NCBI GenBank assembly: GCA_020852755.1
Contig: JADZAF010000036.1
Coordinates: 1-64,000, forward strand
From: Bryobacterales bacterium
GTDB lineage: Bacteria; Acidobacteriota; Terriglobia; Bryobacterales; Bryobacteraceae
Direction: 5' to 3'
Length of the DNA stretch: 64,000 nt
A model generated the notes under the pieces. That model made no database searches and was not told the DNA's origin. It was given only the letters and a program-made list of their open reading frames with translations. Below, piece after piece: positions 12,522 to 14,669 of the stretch. Positions within the stretch are counted from its first letter, which is position 1. Every line of letters begins with the position of its first letter. A program made the position numbers and the translations under genes.

Positions 12522-13205
12522 TTATCTCGGCTGCGCTTCGGCCCCGGCGGAGTCGAGCCGGACCACGAAGGCGCCGCTGTGCAGGCTGCCGTTCTCCGTG
12601 CGGATCCGTTCCAGAAGCAGACCGGCATCGGGCAGGGTGCCCTCCGCGCCGACCAGCACCCGCCACACCGGCGCCGCCCCCTCCCGCCGCACCAGCCGCG
12701 CGCTGCCATAGCGCTGTTCCATGGCGAGACGGAGCCGCTGCGCGTTTTCATAAACCTGGAACGCTCCGACCTGGACCGCATAGGCCTCCACCGCTTCCGC
12801 TGGCGCGGCCGCGGGTCGCCGAATGATCTCCAGCCGGACCGGAGCGGTTCCGGGGCCGATCATCTCAATTGCGCGTGCGGCCGCGCGCGAAAGGTCGATG
12901 ACGCGCCCGTCCACGAAGGGCCCGCGATCGGTGATGCGCACTTCGACGGTCCTGTTGTTGGTGAGGTTGAGCACCCGCACCCAGGTGCCGAACGGCAAGG
13001 TGCGATGCGCGGCCGTCATGGCTTCCATGTCGTAGATCTCGCCGTTGGCGGCCGCGCGGCCGTGGTACGGGTTCCCGTACCAGCTCGCGATTCCGCTTTC
13101 CACGCTGCCGATCGCAGCCGGCGCCGGAACGCTCACCCGCTTCCTGCGACCGCACGCGGCCGTGAGCAGCGCGCAGCAGGCGGCCACGGCCAGAAGTTTG
13201 CGCAT
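12522..13205 (-). CDS. rlpA: RlpA-family septal ring lipoprotein with SPOR domain
   Basis: A 227-residue outer-membrane-type lipoprotein (lipobox LTAAC, Cys18). The double-psi beta-barrel domain (about 35-125) carries GIASWYGNPYHGRAAANGE and ITDRGPFVDGRVIDLS, characteristic of RlpA lytic transglycosylases, which cut peptidoglycan glycan strands lacking stem peptides. The C-terminal region (about 145-215, YAVQVGAFQVYENAQRL) is a SPOR domain that binds denuded septal peptidoglycan. ATG at 13205 has AGGA nine bases upstream and directly begins the signal peptide. It probably helps daughter-cell separation. Confidence 0.9.
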   Translation of the reverse strand: MRKLLAVAACCALLTAACGRRKRVSVPAPAAIGSVESGIASWYGNPYHGRAAANGEIYDMEAMTAAHRTLPFGTWVRVLNLTNNRTVEVRITDRGPFVDGRVIDLSRAAARAIEMIGPGTAPVRLEIIRRPAAAPAEAVEAYAVQVGAFQVYENAQRLRLAMEQRYGSARLVRREGAAPVWRVLVGAEGTLPDAGLLLERIRTENGSLHSGAFVVRLDSAGAEAQPR

Positions 13206-13382
13206 CTGATGTGATCCTAACCCGCGTTGCCGGAATCGGACAACCCATCCCGCCGCCGCTTGCACGCCGTCTGGAATGCCTTCCCGGCGGTGTGCGGCGT
13301 GTGCGGAGTGGCGGAAGGCGCGCGCCTCCGCCCCGTCCCGCCCCGAGTGACGCTACCGCGAAGCATCCATTGCATTTTTTTC

Positions 13383-13411
13383 TTGACTTTCGACGGGAAC
13401 AACTTTATATA
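13383..13411 (+). promoter_or_regulatory. Strong sigma70-type promoter of the lysine-rich mini-gene
   Basis: TTGACT (13383-13388) and TATATA (13406-13411) are separated by exactly 17 bases. Each box matches 5 of 6 consensus positions. The stretch is markedly AT-rich in a GC-rich region. Transcription should start near 13418. A 6-bp stem-loop (GCGATT/AATCGC, 13423-13440) would sit almost at the 5' end of the transcript. Confidence 0.75.
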
Positions 13412-13468
13412 TGAATCACACTGCGATTTTTCCGAATCGCAAATTTGATGTTTAGGGAGAATCAGCCG

Positions 13469-13531
13469 ATGAAGAACGCGACCAAGAAAGCCGCCGCGAA
13501 GAAGAAGGCTCCTGCGAAGAAGAAGAAGTAG
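13469..13531 (+). CDS. 20-codon lysine/alanine-rich mini-protein
   Basis: An ORF of 20 codons encodes a peptide with ten Lys and six Ala (start MKNATKKAAAKKK, end APAKKKK). AGGGAG lies nine bases before the ATG. The composition matches histone-H1-like or nucleoid-binding tails, so it could bind nucleic acid; alternatively the short ORF may sit in a regulatory RNA. Its own strong promoter (13383-13411) and intrinsic terminator (13574-13608) frame it as a unit of roughly 190 bases. Whether it is translated is not proven by sequence alone. Confidence 0.6.
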   Translation: MKNATKKAAAKKKAPAKKKK

Positions 13532-13573
13532 CCTGCGGCGTCCCGAGAAGGGATCTATTTCAGGTTTCGCTTC

Positions 13574-13608
13574 AAGCCCCGGACATCCTCCGGGGCTTTT
13601 TCTTTTTC
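13574..13608 (+). terminator. Intrinsic terminator of the lysine-rich mini-gene
   Basis: A perfect 9-bp stem (AAGCCCCGG with CCGGGGCTT) encloses a 7-base loop and is followed by a U-rich run (TTTTCTTTTT). This is a textbook Rho-independent terminator on the plus strand, 43 bases after the mini-gene stop. It may also limit read-through from the convergent methyltransferase gene ending at 13621. Confidence 0.85.
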
Positions 13609-13620
13609 CGATCCCCCGCC

Positions 13621-14592
13621 TCAACCCCCGCCCTTCCTCTGCAGCAGGCTCCGGAAGCTCTCTCCCATGCCGAACAGCAGCGTCTTCAACTGCAGGCGGC
13701 GCGCCATCTCTCCGGCGCTGGTGTCCGCCGCAAGCGCTTCCCGGAAGTGGTCGCTCTCTCCTTCGGAGAGCAGCAGCCGCGCCAGCGTCTCGAAGCGGAC
13801 AGTCTCCAGCGCCACTGCGGCGCCATGCTCCTGCAGCGCGCTGAAGTTCACGTGGGCTGTGATGTCGCGCTCGCCCGGATCAGCCAGCACGTCCTCGCTC
13901 GCCACGTGGCGCCGGTAGCTCATCAGCGTTCCCCCCGGAAGGCGTTTGACCTCGCCCCGTGTATAGCCGTAGTCGATGGTGAAGTGGTAACCGGTCCTCA
14001 GGGCCGCCGCAATCCGCTCCAGCCGGCGCAGCGCTTCCAGAGAGACCTCCACCGCAAAGCCGTCTTCCAGTTTCGGGAAGTAGCGCGACACGTAGGCCGC
14101 GATCTCCTCGTCGGCCGGCTCGCCTTCCAGCCAGACAAAGCGGCCTTCGCTCCAGCCCACCCGCTGCCGCACCAAAGCCCCGCCGCGCACCACCACCCGT
14201 TCCACCGGGAGCGCGTCGAAGAACTCGTTGGAGAAGACTACGCCGCACATCCGCTCCGGCAATGAGCCGCGCCCGGCCTCCACCGGCAGGTAGCGAAAAC
14301 GGCTCAAAGCCGCGGCCATCTCACCGCGGCCCGCGCCCAGTTCCACCACTTCGAAATCCTCCGGCTGTCCCATCTCCCGGAAGAGCGCGGCGATGCGGCG
14401 CGCGATCAGGATTCCGAAAACCGGCTGCAGTTGCTCGGCGGTAAAGAAGTCGCCCTGGCGCCCGAACGGATCGCGTGTCCGGCGATAGTAGCCGTGTTCG
14501 GGATGATACAGGGCCACTTGCATGAAGCGCGAAAACGGAATGGGCCCCTCGCGGCGGATCTCCTCTTCGAGCTGCACGGCGGCCGGAGTCAC
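13621..14592 (-). CDS. MidA/NDUFAF7-family SAM-dependent methyltransferase (COG1565)
   Basis: A protein of about 323 residues of the DUF185/NDUFAF7 class. In mitochondria the homologue methylates an arginine of a complex I subunit; the bacterial role is not settled. Characteristic stretches are IPFSRFMQVALYHPEHGYY and GDFFTAEQLQPVFG near the N-terminus, motif I VVELGAGRGEMA, and the hallmark VVFSNEFFDALPV. GTG at 14592 is chosen because GGAGA lies eight bases upstream; GTG at 14613 has no ribosome site. It is divergent from the unknown gene at 14670. Confidence 0.85.
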   Translation of the reverse strand: MTPAAVQLEEEIRREGPIPFSRFMQVALYHPEHGYYRRTRDPFGRQGDFFTAEQLQPVFGILIARRIAALFREMGQPEDFEVVELGAGRGEMAAALSRFRYLPVEAGRGSLPERMCGVVFSNEFFDALPVERVVVRGGALVRQRVGWSEGRFVWLEGEPADEEIAAYVSRYFPKLEDGFAVEVSLEALRRLERIAAALRTGYHFTIDYGYTRGEVKRLPGGTLMSYRRHVASEDVLADPGERDITAHVNFSALQEHGAAVALETVRFETLARLLLSEGESDHFREALAADTSAGEMARRLQLKTLLFGMGESFRSLLQRKGGG

Positions 14593-14669
14593 GGACGCTC
14601 TCCGCGCGCACACCCGCCGCCGGTCTGAAGGCTCACGAACTTATGCTAGCTTGAAACCGAAGGGACCTG

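Follow-up and report, generated by a model that had tools for sequence, protein, structure and literature searches.

Bacterial histone H1-like proteins, such as Hc2 (PF07382), the Burkholderia family NF038053 and the C terminus of Pseudomonas AlgP, carry Lys/Ala/Pro repeats of the KKAA/KPAA kind, reach 150 to 350 amino acids (aa) and have a length set by the number of repeats. Chlamydia Hc2, an H1-like protein, is reported to vary by the number of lysine-rich pentamers (PMC2848022). Peptides of KPAA repeats bind DNA in vitro, and AlgP, a K/P/A repeat protein, localizes to polyphosphate granules (PMC9239181). Dual-function RNAs (SgrS/SgrT, SR1/SR1P and VcdRP) are short stand-alone transcripts with a terminator and a tiny ORF, which in VcdRP encodes a 29-aa protein (PMC8672173). 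The mini-gene described here shares the repeat type and the repeat-dependent length with the H1-like proteins and, by analogy, presumably also disorder and DNA binding, but its peptide is usually only 13 to 32 aa long, lacks a folded domain and has its own conserved RNA leader. Like the dual-function RNAs, it seems to combine an RNA part under selection with a small ORF whose variation shows coding selection. Unlike them, it has lost the whole ORF across a genus while the RNA was retained, and it occurs in a phylum outside the examples found.

The window analyzed was a stretch of 64,000 nucleotides from a Bryobacterales bacterium (GCA_020852755.1, contig JADZAF010000036.1, positions 1 to 64,000, forward strand). 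It contains a 226-bp unit of promoter, 5' hairpin, Shine-Dalgarno sequence (SD), MKNATKKAAAKKKAPAKKKK ORF and terminator (Table 1). The first-pass annotation had claimed a near-consensus promoter, a 5'-proximal stem-loop, a ribosome site, a 20-codon ORF with ten Lys and a terminator, and every one of these elements was found in its place, confirming the observation as a whole. The description of the promoter as near consensus held for the -35 hexamer (5 of 6 positions) and the spacer but not for the -10 element; because the latter matches at only 4 of 6 positions, a strict consensus scan omits the promoter. The -35 and -10 elements, the 17-nt spacer and the intrinsic terminator are those of a sigma-70-type unit. 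TTGAC and TATA were nearly invariant across the class, the T run just 5' of the -35 was likewise conserved, and the pattern TTTTTNCTTGAC-N16-20-TATA occurred only once in the 7.4-Mb genome.

Table 1. Coordinates of the unit and its neighboring genes in the window
Feature	Position	Strand	Basis
UP-element-like T-rich stretch TGCATTTTTTTC, directly 5' of the -35	13372..13383	+	Kept in family and class alignments
-35 hexamer TTGACT	13384..13389	+	TTGAC invariant in family (30/30) and class (66/66) sequences
-10 element TATATA, 17-nt spacer	13407..13412	+	Spacer of 17 in 162/165 units (survey allowing 15-22 nt)
TGAATCAC (conserved), discriminator with the probable start site (inferred)	13413..13420	+	Alignment
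5'-proximal stem-loop TGCGATTTTTCCGAATCGCA	13422..13441	+	Covariation in family and class
Shine-Dalgarno AGGGAGAATC (core GGGAGA at about 13456-13461)	13455..13464	+	Family and class alignments; retained even in ORF-less copies
ORF, 20 aa MKNATKKAAAKKKAPAKKKK, ten Lys, stop TAG	13470..13532	+	Third-position bias, frame kept
Small variable inverted repeat GTCCCGAGAAGGGAT 3' of the stop	13540..13556	+	By visual inspection, comparable short inverted repeats in many members of the family
Intrinsic terminator, 10-bp stem AAGCCCCGGA/TCCGGGGCTT and T tail	13574..13608 (stem 13574-13598)	+	Structure scan
Divergent neighbor, RlpA-like protein (DPBB_1 and SPOR)	12522..13214	-	Pfam; synteny in family
Convergent neighbor, MidA-like SAM methyltransferase (PF02636)	13621..14613	-	Pfam; synteny in family

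The search of related genomes that had been suggested along with these claims showed the unit to be conserved. With the 241-bp region as the query, a plain DNA search matched 47 of 61 relatives, the best matches coming from different genera with mostly 74 to 87% identity. When 30 of the loci found in this way were used to build a covariance model, it detected the unit in 136 of 150 genomes of the Bryobacteraceae (104 of the 108 of good quality), in a single copy per genome with one exception. The exceptional genome has a divergent second copy, MKSATKKSTKTSSQSPAKKSKSAPAKKGKK, without a canonical promoter, at L088 (G119:C98). The same architecture is carried by several other families of the Terriglobia, including the Acidobacteriaceae. 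A pattern scan of named genomes yielded little beyond Bryobacterales, Acidobacteriaceae, Edaphobacter, Granulicella, Terracidiphilus, Acidobacterium and comparable taxa; the few remaining titles reflected oddities of binning or were chance matches that lack a start codon. The conservation of AGGGAGAAT in the 118 loci selected by pattern is partly due to the selection pattern itself; the promoter and hairpin were not part of that pattern, and the class-wide covariance model used for the results (R3) required no ORF and still found copies lacking one.

Outside the Terriglobia, the architecture was found in the order of G651, which belongs to another class, with peptides of 26 to 37 aa beginning MAAKKAAKKAPAKK, and G499 perhaps also carries the unit (MATKKKAAKKKKKC). 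Units of the order of G651 (L350-L355) have a roughly 100-nt leader that shows striking conservation of its own, ACATCTAGTGTGTT...CATCTTGTGGT, and holds complementary CACAAGA/TCTTGTG segments. In family f3 (mostly genus g39), which belongs to the order of the Bryobacteraceae, the unit was not found, nor were K/A repeats found in g39, indicating that the function is not universal.

Searches of Pfam and NCBIfam gave no family for the 20-, 27- and 76-aa members, and no Rfam family, including Acido-1 and Acido-Lenti-1, was found in the window at gathering score; the best Rfam matches below the threshold were terminator-like chance matches. The unit is a conserved gene that lies outside these databases. 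No description of it was found in the openly accessible papers searched, and an earlier one may exist elsewhere. A plasmid or phage origin was also considered and gave no match. Single elements of this kind are common, and terminator-like sites occur near the shuffled expectation, as would be anticipated if promoter-, hairpin- and terminator-like pieces lay by chance around a spurious ORF. Such a juxtaposition is refuted by the conservation, the covariation and the coding signal and can be regarded as practically negligible. The view of the first-pass annotation that this is an isolated unit overlooked by automatic annotation was supported by the conservation and the synteny.

The variation within the ORF indicates that it is coding and under selection. 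In the 30 loci from the DNA search, which are independent of the ORF search pattern, the differences counted in codons 3 to 8 were 268 at position 1, 265 at position 2 and 1016 at position 3. The frame was kept in all 30, with lengths of 18 to 27 aa, and the differences in length consisted of Lys/Ala/Pro codons. An ORF poorly conserved in comparison with its flanks had been named as a result that would overturn the proposal; the comparison was run and did not do so. Across 165 distinct units, the peptides were 13 to 76 aa long, with 49% K and 30% A, and most of them ended in KKKK or AKKK; these Lys/Ala/Pro-rich, low-complexity repeats of variable number are of the H1-like kind. Some peptides were very short, 11 to 14 aa. 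In two loci the ORF was expanded in place, to 76 aa (L126) and 52 aa (L060), and in each case the standard promoter and hairpin precede it. With the H1-like family models (Hc2/NF038053), the 74-aa paralogue scored only 13.6 bits (cut-off 40) and 17.6 bits (cut-off 80).

Longer proteins of similar composition were also found. Five genomes of genus g8 (L278-L282) in which the mini-gene was not found encode H1-like K/A/P proteins of 77 to 114 aa, whose genes follow a leader, CACACTG-stem-GTTGATTGGGAGAATC, that resembles the mini-gene leader and has a covarying stem. The idea that long H1-like proteins have neatly taken the place of the mini-gene was considered and rejected: the five g8 genomes fit it, but g39 has neither, and many genomes have both. 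Since many genomes with the mini-gene also encode longer K/A-rich proteins, the mini-gene product is not the sole protein of this kind in them. A protein query of 97 aa had almost no power to detect low-complexity relatives. The genome of the window itself encodes a separate H1-like candidate (L284, G000:C311) that combines a highly acidic segment with an extended KKAPVKKAAKK tail. In another Acidobacteriota family, a 152-aa KATKRK repeat protein (L245, G437:C11) has the same T-run TTGACA promoter type.

The sequence of the 5' hairpin varied while its pairing was retained. In the family, 12 double-changed cells were counted versus 3.4 in shuffled alignments, and class-wide the number was 108 versus 32.7, with none of 500 shuffles as high and double changes at all eight pairs. 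The hairpin starts a few bases 3' of the inferred start site, and mRNA-stabilizing 5' stem-loops begin close to the 5' end of the transcript. The mRNAs with a stabilizing stem-loop of the ompA type have, like this unit, a stem-loop near the 5' end (inferred for the unit) followed by an SD and an ORF; in contrast, the hairpin here covaries across a class and precedes a gene of 20 codons, and a stabilizing role may be attributed to it on the basis of this likeness. A switch in which a hairpin arm would pair with GGGAGAATC and sequester the SD, as drawn from the minimum-free-energy fold, was rejected, as it had no double changes and is impossible class-wide.

The synteny in the Bryobacteraceae, with the RlpA-like gene divergent upstream and the MidA-like gene convergent downstream wherever it was found, indicates that the unit is monocistronic and not the leader of an operon. 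The leader option of the first-pass annotation was accordingly rejected for this family. Beyond the terminator of 40 of 83 Acidobacteriaceae-type units lies an RsmE-like gene on the same strand; this neighborhood was seen in none of the 82 MK-type units. A run of Lys codons shortly 5' of a terminator, followed in part of the Acidobacteriaceae by a gene on the same strand, is what a lysine-sensing leader peptide with an attenuator of the downstream gene would look like. This explanation is very improbable: it is already refuted at the window by the convergent gene, the alternative pairing that would sequester the SD lacks double changes, and the unit persists without Lys codons.

Such persistence, which was unexpected, was most extensive in genus g131 of the Acidobacteriaceae, probably Terriglobus. 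The model matched in 17 of its 19 genomes, in 16 of which the unit was readable to its end and the Lys ORF was destroyed; the 17th copy, cut by a contig end, had the same disrupted start. These copies retained the promoter, the hairpin, AGGGAGARTAG (with one exception) and the terminator. In four close pairs, the unit was 97, 99, 95 and 95% identical versus 83 to 87, 87 to 89, 76 to 82 and 88 to 92% in the flanks, respectively, and wider pairs showed 86 to 88% in the unit versus 71 to 82%. In one distant pair this order was lost (71 versus 69 to 75%). Because the flanks include coding genes, the constraint on a noncoding unit is notable. The ORF was also lost in 3 of 13 copies in genus g54 of the Bryobacteraceae, some genomes of which had no detectable unit, and in single copies in G284 and G240 (Acidobacteriaceae). 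Between the stop and the terminator, Acidobacteriaceae units have a conserved AAGGCAA(A/C), present also in ORF-less copies, at a place where Bryobacteraceae often have AGGTTC.

The persistence of the RNA where the ORF is lost suggests that the RNA probably serves an independent role, as in a dual-function RNA, and the genus-wide loss indicates that the peptide can be dispensed with at this locus. The suggestion of the first-pass annotation that the unit is a small RNA with a peptide thus gained real support from copies that are ORF-less yet conserved. In a stronger form, the unit would chiefly produce a regulatory RNA, with a 5' hairpin, an exposed AGGGAGAAUAG and a terminator, and the ORF would be a secondary passenger that depends on the lineage. 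It is supported by the intact remaining parts in the 16 g131 genomes, by the absence of the ORF also from three species of g54 and from two other Acidobacteriaceae genomes, and by the higher identity of the unit in all close pairs. We consider it rather unlikely, however, as coding selection is clear in most lineages and the ORF is intact in 165 distinct units, AGGGAGAAU is also simply an SD, and the absence of a detectable unit in some g54 genomes fits decay.

Most g131 genomes encode, at another locus (L326-L338, L342, L347), a protein of 85 to 149 aa with an N-terminal MATKKA tail, and the three that were tested belong to DUF6496 (PF20106). Several of these genes sit behind the SD CAGGGAGAAGTAG, which is much like that of the ORF-less unit. 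The pattern was absent from six Acidobacteriaceae with an intact ORF. The DUF6496 proteins resemble the mini-gene peptide in this tail and in several cases in the SD, but differ from it in their length, their C-terminal family domain and their locus. Judged by this resemblance, the tails may represent a captured peptide module, or a coincidence. A bolder possibility, which we put forward only tentatively, is a class-wide dual-function RNA, in which a single transcript would serve as a regulatory RNA and also encode a histone-tail-like protein smaller than any other stand-alone one known; one genus would have turned it into a pure noncoding RNA, with the peptide module appearing again as the tail of DUF6496 proteins.

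The explanation that we favor, with moderate confidence, is that Acidobacteriota, chiefly Terriglobia, carry a monocistronic gene for a minimal H1-tail-like, polyanion-binding peptide whose RNA has its own role. A strong sigma-70-type promoter would give high expression of a short RNA, estimated at about 180 to 190 nt in the window (from promoter to terminator), with the 5'-terminal hairpin protecting it and the terminator providing a clean end. Translation would yield a tiny, disordered Lys/Ala/Pro polycation acting as a detached histone H1 C-terminal tail, which may neutralize and bridge nucleic acid or another polyanion, e.g., polyphosphate, by charge rather than by fold, while the RNA would serve a second role. 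By analogy, the H1-tail composition, the DNA binding of KPAA repeats and the likeness to AlgP and Hc2 make a minimal charge-based nucleic acid or polyanion binder the most likely function. The nucleoid-associated peptide proposed by the first-pass annotation is plausible in view of the composition and of orthologues that appear to have grown into H1-like proteins, although members of 11 to 14 aa are small for DNA condensation. A site of action on ribosomes or polyphosphate granules instead of DNA would agree with the localization of AlgP to such granules (PMC9239181) and with the RsmE-like gene downstream of half of the Acidobacteriaceae-type units. It appears improbable, as that neighborhood is missing from all 82 MK-type units and nothing connects the unit to ppk or ribosomal genes.

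Few groups of soil bacteria are as abundant as the Acidobacteria, and to our knowledge hardly any work has addressed their chromatin or RNA regulation. Retention of the unit in a single copy across the class, together with a promoter of a kind unique in the genome, speaks for a fundamental housekeeping function of a mini-gene too short for gene finders that apply a length cut-off. The unit is also a natural example of an mRNA turning into a noncoding RNA, and because intact, expanded and ORF-less states occur in related cultured strains, the functions of the peptide and the RNA are experimentally separable.
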